From NCBI GenBank assembly GCA_021414245.1, contig JAIOOU010000003.1:186001-250000 (forward strand): 64,000 nucleotides of DNA, given 5' to 3'. Below are positions 20,102 through 29,197 of this stretch, piece after piece. Positions within the stretch are counted from its first letter, which is position 1. Each line of letters opens with the position of its first letter. The translations under genes were made by a program, and so were the position numbers. Origin of the DNA: Chloroflexota bacterium. Lineage in GTDB: Bacteria; Chloroflexota; Anaerolineae; Anaerolineales; Villigracilaceae. The notes below the pieces were generated by a model. The model was not told the DNA's origin. It saw only the letters and a program-made list of their open reading frames with translations, and searched no databases.

Positions 20102-22414
20102 TCAGCTGTTTTGCATTTGGAACAGGAGCTGGCGATATTCCTGCACATTGGGCGGGTTCATCAGCACAATCTGGTTGATGACTTCCTGCGCCTTCAGTTT
20201 ATCCCCTGATTGCATCAGGCTTTCGCCCAATCCATCCAGGAGGGTTACCGCTTCCTCCGTCCGGCCGGCACGGTGATATTGTGCAGCTAGGGCGCGTTTG
20301 AGAATGAGCTGTTCGGGATGTTCCTTGATTAGATCGTCGATAAAGTCGATGGCTTGATCGCCCCTACCCTGGCTTTCTAGATGATTAACGTAGCTCTCGA
20401 GTTCATTCGAAGCCTTGTCATTTTGGACCATGCGCAAATTAAGTTCGACAAGCTGTTTGCGTGCAACTTCATCATCGGGCGCAAGGGTCTTGATCTGCTC
20501 AAAAACCCGCAGGGCCTGCTTCCAATCCAGCCGTTGCAGATCGATATCTGCCATGCGCTGCAGGATGTGCGCATTCCAGTCGCGGTTGCCATTTCCCTGC
20601 TGGACCATGCGCAGGGCGGTCGTATAGGTCTTGCGCGCCAGATCCAATTCGGCCAGACGGTAATGGATGGCGGCCAATTCAAGATATTCATGAATGGCAT
20701 CATCCACCTGTCCGCGGGCGGTCAGCTGGTCGATCAGGCGATTACGGGCACCGAGATCCATCGGAGCAAGTTGAATGATCCGTTTCAGCAGCTTGGTTGC
20801 CTGGTTGACCTCTCCGCGTGCGCTGTACGCCTGGGCAACGACTCCGAATTTGGCAATGGCTTCCTGATTTCGTCCTTCCTGGACGAGCAGGTCTCCCATC
20901 AGAGTGTGCAGGGGCAGGTAGGTGGGTGCGTGCTGCAGGGCGTCATAAGCCTCGTCCATTGCCGACCGCAGGGTGCCAAGCCGTGCAAGTTGATTGATCC
21001 GGTTCATGGATTCAAGCACCGAACTCGATTGCGCCTGCAGGATCATGTCGGCAAGCGGGGCAATCATGTCCCCATCCTGTTTTGGCATCTGATCGCGGGT
21101 CTTATGCAGCTGTTCGCGCCAATCCGGCCGCATGAGCAGGGTGTTGATGTTTTCGCTTATTTTACGCAGGACAGCTTCGTCTTTTTGACCCTGATGCGCT
21201 TCAATCAATGGTTCATATTGCTGGCTGACTTCGTCCGCCTTGCCAGGGGGTACGGTCATTGCGTCGGCAAGCTTCAAGGCCTCGAGATATTCGAGGGCGG
21301 CCTGATTAAAGGCGCCTTTCCTGGCCATCAGTTGTCCCAACAACAGACGGGAGCCGAGGCCGTAATCGGCGTGCTTGACTGAGTTTTGCAGAAAGCGCTG
21401 GGCGGTTTCTAGGCGCTCGCCCTTGAACCGGAGAAGGCCGAGCATGTAGTACAGGGAGGGATGTTTGAATCCGGCTTCGAGCGCGCCTTCCAATTCCTCC
21501 GCAGCCTGCGCATCATTGCCTTTGCTTTGAGAGTCAATGGCCTGCCCGAGGTGTAGGATCGATTTTGTTTGTTCAGACTGCTGCAGGGAAATTCCGCCGG
21601 TACCTTTCATGATCGAGGAAAGGCCGCGCCGTTCCTGTGCGGAGGGGCTGTCATCGGAAAATTCGAAGAGAAGCTCCGCCAGCTGGGTTAATGCTTTTTG
21701 ACGCGCTTCAGCCACCGGGTCCAGCCCTGAAGCGGTTCGTGCCGTCGGTTTCTGTAATTGTTTTACCTGGGCCATGCGGATCGGTCCCGTCCCGCCCTTG
21801 CCGCGAATGGGTTTGGGAAGCAATTGTCCCGTGTTAAGCAAACCCTGCGCTTGTTTAACTTCCTGGCTGGCCGGTAAAAGGGATTGGGCCTTGTCGACCA
21901 TCTCTTTTGCCTTTTCCGCATTGCCCGCGCGCTGGATGATGCTGGCGATGGCGAGATATTCTGTTACCGCCTGCTGGGCGTGACCCAGTTTCTCGTGGAC
22001 CTGGGCCAGGCGGGAGTGCGCAATCGCATTTTCCGGATTTAAGTTGGTAACCCGAACCCAGTTTTCGAGAGCCTTGTCGGTATCGCGCTGCTGCAGAAAA
22101 AGGTCGCCTGCACGCATGGCCATGTCAACGGCTGTTTTTAGATCCCCAAGCCGTTCGGAGATCTGGGCCACTTTTTCAGCGGGCGCCGGATCGTCCTGGG
22201 ACAACTTTGCAACATTCATGTAGATTTGCAAAGCCTCCTCCATGTTGCCGAGTTGATAAAGGGCAAGGCCGAGGCTGTTTAATGCCTTGGGGTTATCCGG
22301 GAATTCCTGCAAGGCGCGCCGGTATGCGACACAGGCCTTGTCCCATTCCTGGTCCCAGGCCGCAGAGTGGCCTTCGTTCATGGCTTTTTGAAAAATATCT
22401 TCTCGTCCGGGCAT
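20102..22414 (-). CDS. Large TPR-repeat protein
   Basis: 770 residues made almost entirely of tetratricopeptide units, with clear examples at both ends (ALNSLGLALYQLGNMEEALQIYMNVA; AIAKFGVVAQAYSARGEVNQATKLLKRIIQLAP; NAHILQRMADIDLQRLDWKQALRVFEQIKTLAPDD). A charged, non-repeat linker of about 100 residues (near 190-290: LPKPIRGKGGTGPIRMAQVKQLQK) separates an N-terminal TPR block from the C-terminal one. No signal peptide or membrane segment, so it is probably a cytosolic scaffold. It is transcribed alone: a TATAAT lies at 22466-22471 upstream and a terminator downstream. The partner is unknown. Confidence 0.85.
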   Translation of the reverse strand: MPGREDIFQKAMNEGHSAAWDQEWDKACVAYRRALQEFPDNPKALNSLGLALYQLGNMEEALQIYMNVAKLSQDDPAPAEKVAQISERLGDLKTAVDMAMRAGDLFLQQRDTDKALENWVRVTNLNPENAIAHSRLAQVHEKLGHAQQAVTEYLAIASIIQRAGNAEKAKEMVDKAQSLLPASQEVKQAQGLLNTGQLLPKPIRGKGGTGPIRMAQVKQLQKPTARTASGLDPVAEARQKALTQLAELLFEFSDDSPSAQERRGLSSIMKGTGGISLQQSEQTKSILHLGQAIDSQSKGNDAQAAEELEGALEAGFKHPSLYYMLGLLRFKGERLETAQRFLQNSVKHADYGLGSRLLLGQLMARKGAFNQAALEYLEALKLADAMTVPPGKADEVSQQYEPLIEAHQGQKDEAVLRKISENINTLLMRPDWREQLHKTRDQMPKQDGDMIAPLADMILQAQSSSVLESMNRINQLARLGTLRSAMDEAYDALQHAPTYLPLHTLMGDLLVQEGRNQEAIAKFGVVAQAYSARGEVNQATKLLKRIIQLAPMDLGARNRLIDQLTARGQVDDAIHEYLELAAIHYRLAELDLARKTYTTALRMVQQGNGNRDWNAHILQRMADIDLQRLDWKQALRVFEQIKTLAPDDEVARKQLVELNLRMVQNDKASNELESYVNHLESQGRGDQAIDFIDDLIKEHPEQLILKRALAAQYHRAGRTEEAVTLLDGLGESLMQSGDKLKAQEVINQIVLMNPPNVQEYRQLLFQMQNS

Positions 22415-22501: not shown

Positions 22502-25309
22502 TTAATCCAGCACCCGCATCTCGCCCCAGCTTTGGCCGGCGCGGGCCTCGGTGGAAAGCGGGATGCTCATGGGGTAGGCATTCGCCATGATTTCCTGGAC
22601 GAGGTGCGCTGTTTTTTCGAGTTCGTCCTTTGGACATTCCAAAACCAGTTCATCATGGACCTGCAGAAGCATCTTGGCCTTGAGCTTCGCAGATTTAAGT
22701 GCCGGCGGGATCTTTAGCATGGCAATCTTCATAATGTCCGCAGCGGTGCCCTGGATGGGGGCGTTGATGGCCTCGCGTTCCTCGCGGTTCTTCATTTGCT
22801 GATTGATCTTGCTTTGCAAGGCGGGGAAATATCGTCTTCTGCCCAACAGGGTTTCGACATATCCCTGCTGCGCGGCGAGCAGGCGGGTTTCATCCAGATA
22901 TTGTTTAACACCCGGGAACTTCCTGAAGTAGGTTTTGACGAAATTTTCAGCCTCGGCCAGAGTCAATTCGGTGGTGCGGGTGAGACCAAAGGCGGACATG
23001 CCGTAGATCAGACCGAAATTGATCGCCTTGGCATGACGGCGCATCTCCTTGGTCACCGCTTCATTTTCGACGCCGTACACTGCCGCTGCGGTAGTGACAT
23101 GGATGTCCTCCCCGGCCCTGAACGCGGCCAGCATGGACTCATCCCTGGCCATGTGCGCGACGATGCGAAGTTCGATCTGCGAATAATCCACGGACAGCAG
23201 AACGTTTCCCTTGCCGGTGATAAACCCGTTGCGCACACGGCGGCCTTCTTCTGTACGGATGGGGATGTTCTGAAGGTTCGGATTCGAGGACGACAGACGT
23301 CCGGTCACGGCGCCGATCTGGCTGTAGGAAGTATGCACCCGGCCGGTATTTGCATCCACAGCTGCAGGCAGGGCGTCCACATAGGTGGATTTGATTTTCG
23401 AGAGTTCACGGTTTTCGAGGATCAGGTCCACCACCGGATGCTTGCCGCGCAAGGCTTCCAGTACGTCGGCGGAAGTGGAAAAATGTCCGCTGGCGGTTTT
23501 CTTTCCCTTGTCCGGCGGGTCAAGACGCAGATGAGTAAAGAGCACTTCCGAAAGTTGCTGGGTCGAGTTAAGGTTGAAGGGTTTGCCAGCCGAGTCAAAG
23601 ACCTGCTTTTCGACCTCGGCCATGCGTTTTGATAGTTTTTCCGACAATTTCTTGAAGAAGGGCAGGTCCAGCAAAATCCCGGTCATTTCCATTTCCGCCA
23701 GGACAGGCACAAGAGGCATTTCGATTTCCGCGAGCAGTTTTGCACCGCCGGTCCGGTCGAGATCCCTTTGCAGGATGGGCATGAGACGGATGATCGTTTC
23801 AGCGTCAGCTGCGGCATAGGGCGCCACGGACTCTATGGCGATATCCGCCATGCTTAACTGGTTTTTTCCCTTGCCGATCAGTTCTTCAATGTGGGTCATC
23901 TCCTCACCGAGGCGGGCCAGGACGAGATTCTTTAATCCCAGATTGCGCGAGGATGGATCGATCACGAATTCGGCCAGCATGCTGTCAAAGGACAGCGGGG
24001 CGGTAACCAAACCATTGCGGGCGAGCACTATATAATCATACTTAACATTGTGACCGATCTTCGGTATTCCCGGATCTGTGAAGGACGGTGCCAGCGTGCT
24101 AATTACCTTATTAAGGGGAAGGTTCTCCCCCGAAGAATGCCCGACCGGAATGTAATACGCCCGGCCTTCATGGGTTGCCAGCGAAATTCCCACGATGTCG
24201 GCCAGCATTTCCTCGGTGGAGGTTGTTTCCGTGTCAAAGGAAATCACCTTTGCCTTTTTCAATTCCCCGGCAAGGTCATCCAGTTTCTCCGGTGTATCCA
24301 CAATGACCACGTCAATGTTCGAGGATTGAGGTGTCGATATAACCTGGGGTTCGTTCACGAACATGGAGAACTGCCCGCTTTTTGTTTTTGCGGATCGGGC
24401 GGGCTTTTCTGTGGCGGGGGCGGAAGCAGATATTTCACCGCTGATGGCAGGCACCTTGTTTAACAAGGTCTTAAATTCCATCTGTCTGAAAAATTCCTCA
24501 AGAGCGGCCGGATCAAAAGGCTTGACCCTGGCATGTTCCAGGTCGATGTTGACTTTCAGGTCGACAATGATTCGGGCCAGGTCCCGGCTCATATAAGCCG
24601 CTTCCCTGCTGCCTTCGAGTTTGCTTTTCCAGCGGTTCTCCACTTGATCCAGATTCTGGTAGACCGCGTCCAGTGTGCCGAATTTTTCAAGCAGCGAGAT
24701 CGCAGTTTTTTCGCCCACGCCTTTTACGCCGGGAATATTGTCGGAGGTATCGCCTACAATGGCTTTGTAATCCACCACCTGATCCGGACGGACGCCCAGT
24801 TTTTTGATTACATCTTCATCTGTAATATAGGTTTGGTCGTCACCAGCCAGATAGACCACGGTGCGCTCGTTGACCAGTTGCAGCAGATCACGGTCGCCGG
24901 TGATGATCTTTACGCCCAATCCCTGCTCCTCCGCAATCCTGGCTGCAGACCCGAGAACGTCGTCCGCTTCATATCCATCCATTTCGAGACGTGGGATGTT
25001 AAAGGCGTCCACCATCTCGCGGATGCGATCAAGCTGCGGGCGCAGGTCATCGGGCATTTTTTCGCGCGTACCCTTGTATTCCGGGAAGATCTTGTCGCGA
25101 AATGTCTTGCCTACATCGAAAGCCACGGCCAGATATTCGGGCTTTTCCTGTTCCAGGATGCGAACCAATTCACGTGCAAAGCCGTAAACACCGGCTGTGG
25201 GTTCACCTTTGGATGTCTGCCAGCGCTGGCTGCTTGAGCCGGCGGTCAGGGCAAAATACATGCGATATGCGAGGGCGTGTCCGTCAATTAAGTAAAGGGT
25301 AGGTGGCAT
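22502..25309 (-). CDS. polA: DNA polymerase I
   Basis: 935 residues with three domains. The 5'-nuclease covers about 1-290 (LYLIDGHALAYRMYFAL, DGYEADDVLGSAAR, ITGDRDLLQLV, PGVKGVGEKTAISLL). The 3'-5' exonuclease (about 330-500) keeps all three motifs: SFDTETTST, GHNVKYDYIVLA and APYAAADAETI, so proofreading should be active. The family-A polymerase (about 540-935) has motif A LLSVDYSQIELRIVAH, the O-helix RRHAKAINFGLIYGMS and motif C LQVHDELVLECP. It repairs gaps and removes primers. No Shine-Dalgarno is evident; a weak inverted repeat lies at 25313-25326 just before the start. Confidence 0.97.
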   Translation of the reverse strand: MPPTLYLIDGHALAYRMYFALTAGSSSQRWQTSKGEPTAGVYGFARELVRILEQEKPEYLAVAFDVGKTFRDKIFPEYKGTREKMPDDLRPQLDRIREMVDAFNIPRLEMDGYEADDVLGSAARIAEEQGLGVKIITGDRDLLQLVNERTVVYLAGDDQTYITDEDVIKKLGVRPDQVVDYKAIVGDTSDNIPGVKGVGEKTAISLLEKFGTLDAVYQNLDQVENRWKSKLEGSREAAYMSRDLARIIVDLKVNIDLEHARVKPFDPAALEEFFRQMEFKTLLNKVPAISGEISASAPATEKPARSAKTKSGQFSMFVNEPQVISTPQSSNIDVVIVDTPEKLDDLAGELKKAKVISFDTETTSTEEMLADIVGISLATHEGRAYYIPVGHSSGENLPLNKVISTLAPSFTDPGIPKIGHNVKYDYIVLARNGLVTAPLSFDSMLAEFVIDPSSRNLGLKNLVLARLGEEMTHIEELIGKGKNQLSMADIAIESVAPYAAADAETIIRLMPILQRDLDRTGGAKLLAEIEMPLVPVLAEMEMTGILLDLPFFKKLSEKLSKRMAEVEKQVFDSAGKPFNLNSTQQLSEVLFTHLRLDPPDKGKKTASGHFSTSADVLEALRGKHPVVDLILENRELSKIKSTYVDALPAAVDANTGRVHTSYSQIGAVTGRLSSSNPNLQNIPIRTEEGRRVRNGFITGKGNVLLSVDYSQIELRIVAHMARDESMLAAFRAGEDIHVTTAAAVYGVENEAVTKEMRRHAKAINFGLIYGMSAFGLTRTTELTLAEAENFVKTYFRKFPGVKQYLDETRLLAAQQGYVETLLGRRRYFPALQSKINQQMKNREEREAINAPIQGTAADIMKIAMLKIPPALKSAKLKAKMLLQVHDELVLECPKDELEKTAHLVQEIMANAYPMSIPLSTEARAGQSWGEMRVLD

Positions 25310-25353
25310 GAGGATAAATTTTTATCGAACCGGGTTGGAGTTGGGTTAAAAAC

Positions 25354-25384
25354 AAAGCGCAGAGTTGATTATACTCTGCGCTTT
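25354..25384 (-). terminator. Terminator after the receiver/roadblock/Y1-fold gene
   Basis: A 12-bp inverted repeat (25354-25365 with 25373-25384, 7-base loop). On the minus strand it is followed by GTTTTT. It separates this operon from polA. Confidence 0.85.
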
Positions 25385-25392
25385 CTGAAAAG

Positions 25393-27063
25393 TTAGCGTC
25401 CGAAGCCTTGGGAATTATCTTCCTGGCCCTGCCGCTGCCGGGTTTGTTGAATGTAATCGCGTACCAATTGCGCGGGATGGGGCTGGGAACCGCCCATGAT
25501 CAGGTATCCCGGAGCCCAGAAATCACCCGAAGGATTTTCCTTCTTGAAACGGTTAAATTCCGCGAATATCTTTTCCGAGGTTTGCTGGCGCATGATGCGC
25601 ATCAGGTAGCCGGGGGAGGTGTTGGGCTGAACATTAACCACCCATTGCAGATATTCCGGGCGGACAGCCAGATATTCCAGCCGCCAGCCAAAGGCGATGC
25701 AGATATTTGGCAGCCATTTGCTGACGTGATCCGCCAGATCACCGGTGATGTAATGGGATGTAAAACGCGGCACAAGCAGGCAGGCATAGGTAAGGTGATA
25801 TAAACCAGCCGAGGTCGGCTCGACCACGAGTTTGCGAATCGCATCCGTGGTCGGACTTTCGCGGGTCACATCCTCTTCGCTGGATTTTGGCCTGACCACG
25901 GGAGTTTCGGGTCTGACCCGGGGCTGGGAGGGAGCCGTGACTTCAATTTCCTCCAGATCCGTTTGATGCTGTGCAGTCTGTTTTGAAGACTGCGGCTGAT
26001 CATTCGCGACAGTCAGGTTTTCCAATTGGAAGGTCGGAGATGCCTCCCGATTAAAAACGGAAGCGTTCGACATGGGGACTGACACACGGGTTTGGTTCGG
26101 ATCAATCCGTTCCTTTTTGCGCGTCTGTTTGAATTCACGCGAAGCGGAAGGTGAGGGGTTGGGTGTCGGAATGTCCGAAAGGATGTTGGAAATTGACGAA
26201 ATATTATCCATCGACTCGCCATCATCCAGGTCTGCAGGAAATTCCACGGATGATTTCGAAGCGGATTTGGCGGGTTTGGGTGATTCGCTTCGCTCGTTTC
26301 CCAGATCGCCGACCAATTGACTGGCCTGGCTGCGAATGGTGCTGAAGGGAGTCTCTGCGTCAAAGACCAAGGCCAGGACCGTGTCCGCAGAGAGGCGGGT
26401 GGCATACAGCATATGCTCGGCCTTGGTGGATTCGAGGCGGATAAACCTGAGCAGGTCCGAACCTTTTTGCCCGTCCCAATTGCGGGTCACCGTCTGAGCT
26501 ACTTCCTTGGCGGCATTGGCCGAGAGGCCGCCGGCATAGGACCATACTTCATTATTGCGGGTGATCAACGCGGCCTGGGCGGATGATTCCAATGTCAGGC
26601 GGGTTAAATGCTGTGCAGCCTTGCTGACATCACTCAGCCAGGACATGGATGTATTTGATGATGTACTTTGTTGTGGGGTGGGTGCTGCCGTAGCCTGCGG
26701 AGCGCTGATCGCCATCATGAAAGCCGACATCTTGAATGGTTTTCGAACGAGAATCCATGGGCGTAATTTATCGAATGCGGGCGGGGTAATGTTCTCATCG
26801 CAAAGAATGATCAGGTTGATACCCGGTCGAACCGTGCGCAAAGCCTGTCCGATTTCGTTGACCCAATCGTCGCCGAGCGAATAATCCAACAGGGCAAGCG
26901 GAGCCCCCAGTTCGTCCGCGCGAACAATGGCGGATGACTTATTGTGGACAACATGGATTCGATATAGCTTCGTCTCTTCCAGTGTCTTCTGTATTGCTTC
27001 CCCTAGGGTGGAGGAAGGGGTGACGACAAGCATATCCGCTGGCATATACGCAAATTCTATCAC
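25393..27063 (-). CDS. Receiver-like / roadblock / IS200-type Y1-transposase-fold fusion protein
   Basis: 556 residues, three folded parts. Residues about 9-122 form a receiver-like domain: Asp60 (LALLDYSLG) and Lys108 (ILVRKPFK) are at the phosphorylation and Lys positions, but the first strand reads VVTPSS instead of an acidic pair. Residues about 143-260 resemble a roadblock/LC7 domain (AALITRNNEVWSYAGGLS; EHMLYATRLSADTVLALVFD). After a disordered linker (265-410), residues 422-543 match the Y1 transposase fold of IS200/IS605: YHLTYACLLVPRF at its start, GDFWAPGYLIMGG near 513-525 and a Tyr at 537 in VRDYIQQT. The HUH motif, normally PDHVHLLV, is PEYLQWVV at 469-476, so both histidines are gone. 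Probably a domesticated nucleic-acid-binding module. It follows a 189-residue unknown gene by 30 bases. Confidence 0.85.
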   Translation of the reverse strand: MIEFAYMPADMLVVTPSSTLGEAIQKTLEETKLYRIHVVHNKSSAIVRADELGAPLALLDYSLGDDWVNEIGQALRTVRPGINLIILCDENITPPAFDKLRPWILVRKPFKMSAFMMAISAPQATAAPTPQQSTSSNTSMSWLSDVSKAAQHLTRLTLESSAQAALITRNNEVWSYAGGLSANAAKEVAQTVTRNWDGQKGSDLLRFIRLESTKAEHMLYATRLSADTVLALVFDAETPFSTIRSQASQLVGDLGNERSESPKPAKSASKSSVEFPADLDDGESMDNISSISNILSDIPTPNPSPSASREFKQTRKKERIDPNQTRVSVPMSNASVFNREASPTFQLENLTVANDQPQSSKQTAQHQTDLEEIEVTAPSQPRVRPETPVVRPKSSEEDVTRESPTTDAIRKLVVEPTSAGLYHLTYACLLVPRFTSHYITGDLADHVSKWLPNICIAFGWRLEYLAVRPEYLQWVVNVQPNTSPGYLMRIMRQQTSEKIFAEFNRFKKENPSGDFWAPGYLIMGGSQPHPAQLVRDYIQQTRQRQGQEDNSQGFGR

Positions 27064-27093
27064 CTAAAGAGGTCGGCATCAAGACCAAAACTT

Positions 27094-27663
27094 TCAATTC
27101 TGATAGTTGGAGTCAAAATCCCCCGGTAGATCCTTGATTCCCAATAAAGCAACCAGTATATCCGCTGGAATATCCCCATCTGGCAGGTCGGTTTTATAAA
27201 GTTGACCGTTTTCGGCCCGTTCACGCAGGGACCGCCAAAGCAGCTGGCGTTCGTCCCCGGCCACCACCAGGTCATTGATCGTCCTTGCCTTTTGCAGATA
27301 TTCTCCGGTGGAGTATAAAAAGGTCAGGCGTTTCCATTTGTCTGCCATGATGGGGGCAGGCAGCTTGTCTAATCCGCTCAATTGTATTTTGTAATATTCC
27401 TCATGTGCGCGTGGATGGTCCGGTTCGTCCCGCAACAGTTCAGCGCGTGTGGTCAACTCATGGCCGTTGACCTTTGAAATGAATTCGATCTGCCCGCCGC
27501 GTTCGCCGAAGGAGGAGGGCTGGTAGAAGGCCAGGTAGTCCACGGCCACCACTTTCGGCGCGGTACGAAGCGGGATGCGATACCAGCCGAGGAGCCGCGC
27601 GATTTCCAGATCCCGCGGAGTGGGGAGCAGGCAGACCAGAATAAGATCGGTCGGGCTGAGCAT
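27094..27663 (-). CDS. Conserved-looking protein of unknown function, partner of the Y1-fold fusion
   Basis: 189 residues, soluble, no signal peptide. The N-terminus reads LSPTDLILVCLLPTPRDLEIARLLGWYRIP, followed by VVAVDYLAFYQPSSFGERGGQIEFISKV. The pattern resembles a protein seen beside nuclease or restriction-like genes, but I cannot name a family safely. The C-terminus (LRERAENGQLYKTDLPDGDIPADILVALLG) is mixed alpha/beta. It lies 30 bases upstream of the receiver/roadblock/Y1 gene on the same strand with one promoter, so the two form a two-gene operon. The TATAAT is six bases from the ATG, and no Shine-Dalgarno is present. Confidence 0.7.
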   Translation of the reverse strand: MLSPTDLILVCLLPTPRDLEIARLLGWYRIPLRTAPKVVAVDYLAFYQPSSFGERGGQIEFISKVNGHELTTRAELLRDEPDHPRAHEEYYKIQLSGLDKLPAPIMADKWKRLTFLYSTGEYLQKARTINDLVVAGDERQLLWRSLRERAENGQLYKTDLPDGDIPADILVALLGIKDLPGDFDSNYQN

Positions 27664-27669
27664 GAGCTG

Positions 27670-27675
27670 ATTATA
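27670..27675 (-). promoter_or_regulatory. Leaderless-type -10 box
   Basis: TATAAT (minus strand) with only six bases to the ATG at 27663. It stands between the terminator at 27691-27725 and the gene, so the operon must start here with the transcript beginning at or next to the A of ATG. Confidence 0.65.
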
Positions 27676-27690
27676 AATCGTGTGCTGTAA

Positions 27691-27725
27691 AAAGTGACAG
27701 TCACCTCTGAGGTGACTGTCACTTT
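27691..27725. terminator. Terminator after the PLP-enzyme gene
   Basis: A perfect 15-bp inverted repeat (27691-27705 with 27711-27725, loop TCTGA). On the minus strand it directly follows the PLP-enzyme stop (27731) and runs into T5. Confidence 0.92.
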
Positions 27726-27730
27726 GGCTG

Positions 27731-29197
27731 CTATGTCAATCCCACTTCCTTGTTGAACTCAACGATCAACTCGTCAATTTGATCGGCTTGCTTTTGAACA
27801 TCCGTCCAGTAATTCGGGGCGTACCATTGATCCAGGATCTCCTGATACGTGCGGCCCTGTTGTTCCACCCAGGTATAGTATTTCAGGTTGTGGACCCGGC
27901 GGCGTTCGGGGTAGGTGAGCTCAAGCATGTTGTCTGTGGACTGTCCGTGCAGATATTGAGCGAAGTCGGCGGCGGCGTTATTTTCGGTGTATTCGCCGGA
28001 TTCCTGATGCATTTCGTGCAGGCGCGAGCGATAGAGTTCCATAGAATCAGTCAGCATGGTGATCATCACATCGTTCTCGTCCATCTCATAATACTTGGCG
28101 ACCTTGATGCAGGAAAGTACATTGGAGATGCCGGAGAAACCAAGCAGGTCGAGGCTGGAGATGATGGATTCGGGCACGCCTTTTTCCGCGAGATAGGCAC
28201 GTCCATTCTCTTCGTTGAAGAGGCGCGCAAGGTTGACCACTGCGTTATCGTCAATGGCGGTCACAAAGTCCGTGTTCTTGGTGTTGTGTACCCACGGCAC
28301 GTGTTTGTCGCCGATGCCTTCGATACGATGCGAGCCGAATCCGTTTTCCAAAAGGGTCGGGCATTGCAGGGCTTCGCTGGCGATGATCTTGCTGTTCGGA
28401 AAGACTTGTTTGAGATAGTCACCGCTGGCGATCGTGCCAGCCGAGCCGGTGGCGGAGGCCATGCCGCGGAAACGGTCGTTCTTGCCCATCACTTTCCTGA
28501 GCACTTCCTCCATGGCGTGACCTGTCACTTCGTAATGCCAGAGATAATTTCCGAATTCTTCGAACTGGTTGAAGATCATCAGGTCCTGGCCCGATTTTTT
28601 CAACTCCCAGCATTTATCGAAGATCTCTTTCACATTGGATTCGGAGCCGGGGGTCTTGATCGTTTCACCTGCGACCTTCGCAAGCCATTCGAATCTTTCC
28701 TTCGACATGCCTTCGGGCAGAATGGCGATTGACTCGCATCCCAGCAAGGCGGAATCATACGCGCCGCCGCGGCAGTAATTGCCCGTGGATGGCCAGACTG
28801 CCTTTTGAGTCGTCGGATCAAACTGACCGGTGACCAACCTCGGCACGAGACAGCTGAAGGCTGCCCCGACCTTGTGCGCACCCGTCGGAAACCATTTGCC
28901 GACCAAGACAAATATGCGCGCCTTGACGCCTGTCAGCGAAGACGGAAGCTCAAGGTAGTTGACCCCGCCAAAAGTCCCGCCGGATGCGCTGGGTTGGTTA
29001 TGCCAGTTGATTCGAAACAGATTGCGCGGGTGAATGTCCCAAAGTCCGATGCCTTTCAATTCCTCCTTTACTTTCGCGGGAATTTTGGAAGGGTCCTTCA
29101 TTTGGGCGTAGGTGGGGATGATGATATTGCGTTCTTTCGCGCGCTGGATGGCGCGGGCGCGGCGTTCTTTGTGAATGGTCAGGTCGATTGTGGTCAT
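27731..29197 (-). CDS. Fold-type II pyridoxal-phosphate enzyme (TrpB/threonine-synthase-like, 'PLP-dependent subunit beta')
   Basis: 488 residues from the ATG at 29197 (AGGAGA upstream). The PLP lysine is in KWFPTGAHKVGAAFSCL, followed by the STGNYCRGGAYDSALLG substrate loop, which replaces the Ser/Thr-Gly-Asn-x-G pattern of threonine synthase and cysteine synthase. A glycine-rich phosphate cradle appears as ASATGSAGTIASGDYL. This Chloroflexi-type protein is often annotated only as a beta-subunit-like PLP enzyme, and the substrate is not settled. Candidates are amino-acid lyase or beta-replacement chemistry. The gene is alone, with a TATAAT and an inverted-repeat operator candidate upstream (29215-29229) and a strong terminator behind. 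Confidence 0.85.
   Translation of the reverse strand: MTTIDLTIHKERRARAIQRAKERNIIIPTYAQMKDPSKIPAKVKEELKGIGLWDIHPRNLFRINWHNQPSASGGTFGGVNYLELPSSLTGVKARIFVLVGKWFPTGAHKVGAAFSCLVPRLVTGQFDPTTQKAVWPSTGNYCRGGAYDSALLGCESIAILPEGMSKERFEWLAKVAGETIKTPGSESNVKEIFDKCWELKKSGQDLMIFNQFEEFGNYLWHYEVTGHAMEEVLRKVMGKNDRFRGMASATGSAGTIASGDYLKQVFPNSKIIASEALQCPTLLENGFGSHRIEGIGDKHVPWVHNTKNTDFVTAIDDNAVVNLARLFNEENGRAYLAEKGVPESIISSLDLLGFSGISNVLSCIKVAKYYEMDENDVMITMLTDSMELYRSRLHEMHQESGEYTENNAAADFAQYLHGQSTDNMLELTYPERRRVHNLKYYTWVEQQGRTYQEILDQWYAPNYWTDVQKQADQIDELIVEFNKEVGLT

Follow-up and report, generated by a model that had tools for sequence, protein, structure and literature searches.

A receiver-roadblock protein of Chloroflexota ends in a Y1 transposase fold that lacks the HUH motif

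We describe a gene whose product joins a degenerate receiver domain and a roadblock/LC7-like domain to a C-terminal Y1 domain of the kind found in the transposases (TnpA) of the IS200/IS605 group. The gene lies in a 64,000-nucleotide stretch of a Chloroflexota genome (GenBank assembly GCA_021414245.1, contig JAIOOU010000003.1, positions 186,001 to 250,000), here called the window. We are close to certain that the Y1 domain has lost its metal site and its ability to cut and that it has been exapted as a noncutting domain. Support for the fold and the exaptation is good. The exapted pseudo-transposase is the C-terminal module of a signaling-type protein, whose mechanism is a matter of inference: the protein may act as a noncatalytic dimeric scaffold or adaptor, an inferred role that we put no higher than an even chance. 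The features of the locus are collected in Table 1.

Table 1. Positions of the fusion gene, its domains, and its neighbors within the window
Feature	Coordinates	Strand	Details and basis
Fusion gene, receiver-roadblock-linker-HUH-less Y1	25393..27063	(-)	556 aa, GTG start; ORF list and orthologues
Degenerate receiver domain, residues 6-125	26689..27048	(-)	Asp60 and K108-P109 kept, acidic pair lost
Roadblock/LC7-like domain, residues 141-256	26296..26643	(-)	Foldseek MglB match; Robl_LC7 in 1/17 members
Linker, residues 259-412	25828..26289	(-)	Low-confidence model, pLDDT mostly <50; net charge -5
HUH-less Y1 domain, residues 413-548	25420..25827	(-)	Pfam, model, Foldseek
Former HUH motif position, now Y471-L472-Q473	25645..25653	(-)	Alignments and residue counts
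Y537, aligned with the catalytic Tyr of TnpA	25453..25455	(-)	Invariant alignment column; Phe in 27/96 chains
T541, in place of the metal-binding Gln of TnpA	25441..25443	(-)	Alignment; role of Gln from the accessible part of PMC6006769
polA (DNA polymerase I), conserved downstream neighbor	22502..25309	(-)	Pfam DNA_pol_A, E 1.5e-153
TPR-repeat protein beyond polA	20102..22414	(-)	Pfam TPR; often syntenic in close relatives
189-aa protein, upstream neighbor	27094..27663	(-)	30 nt from the fusion gene
Intrinsic-terminator-like hairpin between fusion gene and polA	25354..25384	(-)	Perfect 12-bp stem, T-rich tail

Domain architecture and fold

The Y1 fold of the C-terminal domain, originally predicted from the letters of the window alone, is now well supported, as Pfam, a sequence search of the PDB, and a structure model concur. 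Residues 422 to 540 match the Pfam family Y1_Tnp (E 2.6e-12; 47.4 bits against a cutoff of 23), the sequence search of the PDB ranks the TnpA chain 2ec2_A first (E 1.8e-10), and the NCBIfam IS200 transposase family scores 53.3 bits, just below its cutoff of 55. Modeled alone from an alignment in which 7 intact TnpAs of viral contigs were added to 23 fused relatives, the domain reached a pLDDT of 92.1 and a pTM of 0.84, and the first 29 Foldseek matches to this model were all TnpA chains. The seven TnpA rows pull the model toward the TnpA fold, and the independent support is that of the sequence matches. The model superposes on 2fyx_A with a TMt of 0.83 (rmsd 3.5) and on IS608 2vic_B with a TMt of 0.74 (rmsd 7.9); the rmsd of most TnpA superpositions other than 2fyx_A is high, about 7 to 15 Å, which a differently placed C-terminal helix could explain, although this is an inference. 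A scan of the viral contig set with the window's Y1 domain found no relative.

The three-domain chain was likewise borne out, the receiver being recognized by VIA-align, the roadblock domain by an MglB match of the structure model, and the Y1 domain by Pfam. In a full-length model built from 38 sequences, the receiver and roadblock domains have a pLDDT of mostly 80 to 95 (about 90 in the receiver part), and the Y1 part is poor. The receiver matches 6ifh, among Spo0F-type receivers (VIA-align Z 16.0, rmsd 2.4, 113 aligned); as receivers fill the VIA-align list for the full-length model, the absence of TnpA from that list is uninformative. For the roadblock domain, Foldseek returned MglB 6h5b_C (TMt 0.71, rmsd 2.5, probability 1.00). 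By sequence, Pfam recognizes neither a receiver nor a roadblock domain in the window protein at a significant level. Across 17 diverse members, the window protein included, Pfam reports Y1_Tnp in all 17, Response_reg in 12, and Robl_LC7 in 1 (E 0.0014). A search with PADLOC gave nothing for the fusion protein, and PHROGs gave transposase only.

As predicted, the receiver lacks the acidic pair for Mg2+, with T15-P16 at this place in the window. The phospho-acceptor-type residue D60 is present in 93 of 96 unique three-domain chains (de-duplicated by sequence), K108 in 78, and P109 in 94; Asp60 occurs together with any acid at positions 14 to 16 in six. An alternative ATG start at residue 7 (27043-27045) is equally likely, since M7 is near-invariant among orthologues.

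Loss of the catalytic residues

The HUH motif is present in seven of seven aligned TnpAs, and its two His positions align to Y471 and Q473 of the window protein, while the catalytic Tyr aligns to Y537. The spacing of 64 to 66 residues between motif and Tyr, on which the original prediction relied, thus stands. The prediction that both His residues are replaced was also correct, with the addition that the metal-binding Gln is lost too and that the Tyr is often a Phe. Both His residues occur together in none of the 96 chains, and a single one occurs in eight; one chain is gapped at the motif, and the single gapped chain of the set is probably a broken frame of locus L081. The catalytic Tyr column holds Tyr in 68 chains (including that of the window), Phe in 27, and a gap in 1, and the metal Gln column holds Thr in 68 and Gln in 8. 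The set of sequences without a roadblock domain (n = 39) includes, besides TnpAs, fusions cut by contig ends or broken frames (L081, L090, L102, and L106). That several lineages retain a single His is consistent with an ancestor that had the HUH motif.

Conserved gene neighborhood

A two-gene operon had been predicted, and this holds near the lineage of the window only: a count by eye gave a match to the 189-aa upstream neighbor at 32 of 56 close loci, some of them short of flank, compared to 0 of 20 order-level loci. Upstream neighbors differ between loci, and the 189-aa protein has no match in Pfam, NCBIfam, PADLOC, or PHROGs and no significant match in the PDB. The widely kept neighbor is instead polA: of 86 loci with enough flank, 77 have a same-strand polA gene no more than 3 kb downstream, and in 68 of these 77 it is within 300 bases. 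This sample comprises L032 to L135 and 14 class-level loci, with L001 to L031 and later loci excluded and three short-flank loci set aside. Four of the 86 loci (L131, L133, L134, and L135) repeat genomes already present, and without repeats the count is 74 of 82. The loci without polA are L056/L135, L068, L100, L102, L166, L170, L181, and L184. In other families, two-domain receiver-roadblock genes without a Y1 domain (L178, L179, and L183) hold the same polA-adjacent place.

The gene was predicted to have its own terminator, and a hairpin with a perfect 12-bp stem and a T-rich tail (25384-25354, minus strand) indeed follows directly after its stop codon. The terminator scan as a whole found 11 sites against 8.7 expected, and therefore only the quality of the stem supports this hairpin. 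Given its position between the two genes in the window, shared transcription of the fusion gene and polA is not implied.

No insertion sequence ends are apparent, again as predicted; the two close inverted repeats within 24900-27900 both look like terminator hairpins. A perfect 17-nt inverted repeat with a GTGACWGTCAC core lies at 27691-27725, just after a PALP-family gene, and recurs right after that gene in three relatives (L034, L040, and L052). The genome has 12 copies of the core, compared to 0 in a reversed control. We considered this palindrome as a target of the Y1 domain and rejected it: the repeat follows a stop codon, ends in a T run, and has a core that recurs 12 times, for which a terminator is the simpler explanation. 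It is probably a recurring terminator.

Stand-alone paralogues

From the genus of the window, 22 stand-alone dead-Y1 proteins form a clade nested in the fused group (support, 100/98), a placement that makes the fusion their most likely source. In 11 of 21 loci, the stand-alone gene has an Mrr-like gene nearby, directly adjacent in 9 of these 11; one such neighbor matches Pfam Mrr_cat (E 2.5e-8) and PADLOC PDC-S02 (E 1e-20). At the Mrr-like loci (L109 to L115, L125, and L128, also L117 and L122), the Mrr-like gene encodes about 283 aa and often precedes a 163-aa gene of unknown family. At L118, L119, L121, and L123, the stand-alone gene adjoins one for a DUF1521-like protein (by Pfam on two, by similarity on all four). 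The stand-alone protein at L119:1969-2613 comes nearest to an exception in the survey for copies that keep HUH: its HUH positions read HLH, but Phe and Thr stand where TnpA has the Tyr and the Gln.

Surface properties and proposed role

We compared the charge of Y1 domains in rows with at least 105 aligned residues. The mean net charge is +4.8 in TnpA, +2.2 in near fusions, +0.4 in order-level fusions, and -5.8 in class-level fusions, and the ranges overlap (-1 to 8 in TnpA, -2 to 5 in near fusions). Positions 435 and 436, which form a basic loop in TnpA, are K/R in 11/11 and 11/11 TnpA rows, compared to 0/73 and 0/73 near fusions, 0/14 and 2/14 order-level fusions, and 0/12 and 3/13 class-level fusions. 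TnpA has 12 columns in which K/R predominates, and of these the near fusions keep R433 (73/73), R492 (72/72), K508 (70/72), and R535 (71/72), and position 446 is basic in part of them (43/73). R433 is also kept in 14/14 order-level and 9/12 class-level rows. Across the fusions, W460 is conserved in 97/99 (and is W in four TnpAs), W516 in 98/99, and Y520 in 96/99. R542, found in 96/98 fusions and accompanied by an RQG tail in near relatives, is absent from the common TnpA letters.

As the basic loop and the positive charge are not kept family-wide, a role in protein interaction or dimerization is favored over hairpin binding, although the matter is unsettled. The pattern of W460, W516, Y520, and R542 seems, by inference, more in keeping with a surface for protein binding or dimerization than with a conserved DNA-binding one. 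The original prediction had left the choice between signaling and DNA or RNA binding; signaling fits better, and classical DNA binding fits less well.

MglB-type roadblock proteins and TnpA operate as dimers. TnpA shares its active site across the two chains and binds hairpins at the element ends, according to the accessible part of PMC5934647. Each chain of the fusion would thus carry two dimerizing modules, the roadblock and Y1 domains. The roadblock domain may pair with a second roadblock protein or bind a small GTPase of the MglA-like kind, and the genome of the window has both kinds of candidate: two small roadblock proteins (L191 and L192) and a 177-aa Ras-like GTPase (L236:1495-2028). 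The matches of the GTPase are modest, both to Arf/Rab-type chains (best E 2.1e-7) and to MglA 3t12 (E 9e-6); its gene lies within a same-strand gene run on a different contig from the fusion. No MglA-like gene was found among the window neighbors scanned. The degenerate receiver could serve for docking or be weakly regulated, and a protein-binding surface might lie on the dead Y1 domain around its altered former active site, W460, and R542. In the absence of interaction data, a mainly protein-protein function of the Y1 fusion is a claim that could go either way; contact with an MglA-like GTPase is possible but rather doubtful.

Some hints of DNA run against the scaffold reading, namely, the polA neighbor and the pairing of stand-alone paralogues with an Mrr-like gene. 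The dead Y1 domain could instead bind structured single-stranded DNA or RNA and serve as a regulator or accessory of DNA polymerase I in repair or Okazaki-fragment work, with the receiver and roadblock domains as inputs. We consider this unlikely but cannot rule it out, particularly in the lineage of the window, where the near fusions are mildly basic and keep the four basic positions listed above. The link to polA in most loci is in its favor, but the same place is held by the two-domain relatives L178, L179, and L183, and the link therefore does not single out the Y1 domain; moreover, a terminator-like hairpin separates the two genes in the window, and gene order may last without a common function. 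Nucleic acid binding must also be reconciled with the loss of the 435-436 loop in all groups and with the negative mean charge of the class-level fusions.

Selection on the Y1 domain

Among 38 close orthologues, the median dN/dS is 0.070 for the Y1 domain, 0.085 for the roadblock domain, 0.21 for the receiver, and 0.32 for the linker (pairs limited to dS 0.1 to 1.5, which leaves 63 to 161 of 703 pairs, depending on the domain). The former HUH site (Y471 and Q473) is unchanged in these 38 orthologues. The Y1 domain is thus the slowest-evolving part of the chain in near orthologues, which suggests that it works without cutting.

This constraint also speaks against a Y1 domain that is a structural remnant and does no more than maintain the fold or dimer of the chain. 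In distant families, the former catalytic positions do vary, as would suit a remnant. The Y1 domain has, however, spread as a stand-alone gene family, and the existence of two-domain forms without it indicates that the chain can do without Y1; we regard the remnant as a poor candidate next to the scaffold or adaptor that we favor.

Distribution and inheritance

Matches were found in 55 of 61 genomes, the window genome included. A whole-chain search of the class matched 297 of 297 genomes because ordinary receivers match, and the search was rerun with the roadblock-Y1 part only. At E 1e-3, this profile matched in 243 of 397 class genomes, and one match spans roadblock and Y1 domains in at least 93 of the 397, from at least 12 families (both figures counted by eye among the matches listed). 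The name Anaerolineales is borne by many of the close relatives. Domain order is unchanged in distant members, often with long receiver-roadblock linkers and with frames of up to 1256 codons, and some families have receiver and roadblock domains only (L178, L179, L180, and L183; 253 to 308 codons).

A search of 300 sampled phylum genomes at E 1e-12 gave 64 matching genomes, 36 of them outside the class (the total of outside-class genomes in the sample was not recorded). The outside-class matches listed start at profile position 111 or later, in the linker and Y1 parts, and have frames of 90 to 232 aa, with one exception; in each of the four that were fetched, neither receiver nor roadblock accompanies the Y1 domain. 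One of these four, with a 533-aa frame (G495:C53), was rejected as a fusion, its true Y1 frame being an ordinary 143-aa TnpA with the motif DHVHL. As far as sampled, the fusion looks confined to one Chloroflexota class.

In a tree of 80 Y1 domains, the TnpAs fall on one side of a branch with support of 80/95 that occurs in 84% of bootstrap trees, which is not strong. Near-identical fusions had been thinned by locus number to keep 80 rows, and the number dropped was not recorded. The fused branches mostly track host families; the fused rows nearest the TnpAs are L158 and L184, which are long or isolated. The fusion is vertically inherited and not mobile, and the gene described here is the only Y1_Tnp match in the genome of the window. 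The predicted exaptation is upheld by the Y1 match and by our finding no close homologue with an intact catalytic set in a mobile element.

The top family matches are transposases, as would be expected if the gene encoded an active transposase or belonged to a mobile element, but this reading is rejected as virtually impossible on residues (HUH and Gln gone), copy number, and synteny (the fixed place by polA), together with a tree that mostly tracks host families. Still less credible is an assembly or annotation artifact fusing unrelated genes: many relatives are metagenome-assembled genomes, but the chain is one open frame in 96 unique sequences from many genomes, including the single-contig genomes G021 and G025, and we reject the artifact.

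Relation to known systems and significance

The fusion shares with IS200/IS605 TnpA (2ec2, 2fyx, IS608 2vic, and ISDra2 2xma) the Y1 fold, W516, Y520, the HUH-Tyr spacing, and, in the window, the Tyr. Unlike TnpA, it has neither HUH nor the metal Gln, often has Phe for the Tyr, has lost the 435-436 loop, carries receiver and roadblock domains, and is immobile. RAYT/TnpAREP proteins are similarly host-adopted Y1 proteins outside a typical insertion sequence; in the accessible part of PMC6006769, the HuH/Y core is common to the whole Y1 family, these proteins included, class 2 has the signature Y---NP, and described Y1 members are taken to process single-stranded DNA. The fusion, in contrast, has no HUH, and its motif is Y-I-Q-Q-T rather than Y---NP. 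Where flanking REP pairs of the RAYT type might be sought, there is the genome-repeated, terminator-like palindrome at 27691-27725.

Receiver-roadblock fusion proteins have been noted previously (PMC4316618, in its accessible part). Compared to these and to MglB, with which it has the roadblock fold in common, the fusion adds a Y1 domain and lacks an MglA-like gene among the neighbors scanned. TldR proteins are nuclease-dead. They are RNA-guided regulators related to TnpB, as far as the accessible part of PMC13418256 describes them. The logic of an IS605-group protein reused as a regulator is common to both cases, but TldR derives from TnpB and not TnpA.

The expectation that no system of this makeup has been described was met within the open-access literature, where we found no description of a receiver-roadblock-Y1 chain; the accessible part of a review of adopted mobile elements (PMC8987985) contains no such case. 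A host-adopted transposon protein stripped of its chemistry is thus known in principle, and the receiver-roadblock-Y1 variant appears to be undescribed. It is a tentative suggestion, and one we would not lean on, that this is the first Y1 pseudo-transposase family, in which a dead TnpA became the output module of a class-wide, polA-tied scaffold and spun off Mrr-pairing genes, possibly for defense or DNA sensing.

Automatic annotation may, we infer, mislabel such genes as transposases. In the lineage of the window, the Y1 fold has been held under strong selection after the loss of all metal ligands, which makes the receiver-roadblock-Y1 family a clear test of a transposase fold without its chemistry and a possible way into the little-studied roadblock signaling of Chloroflexota.
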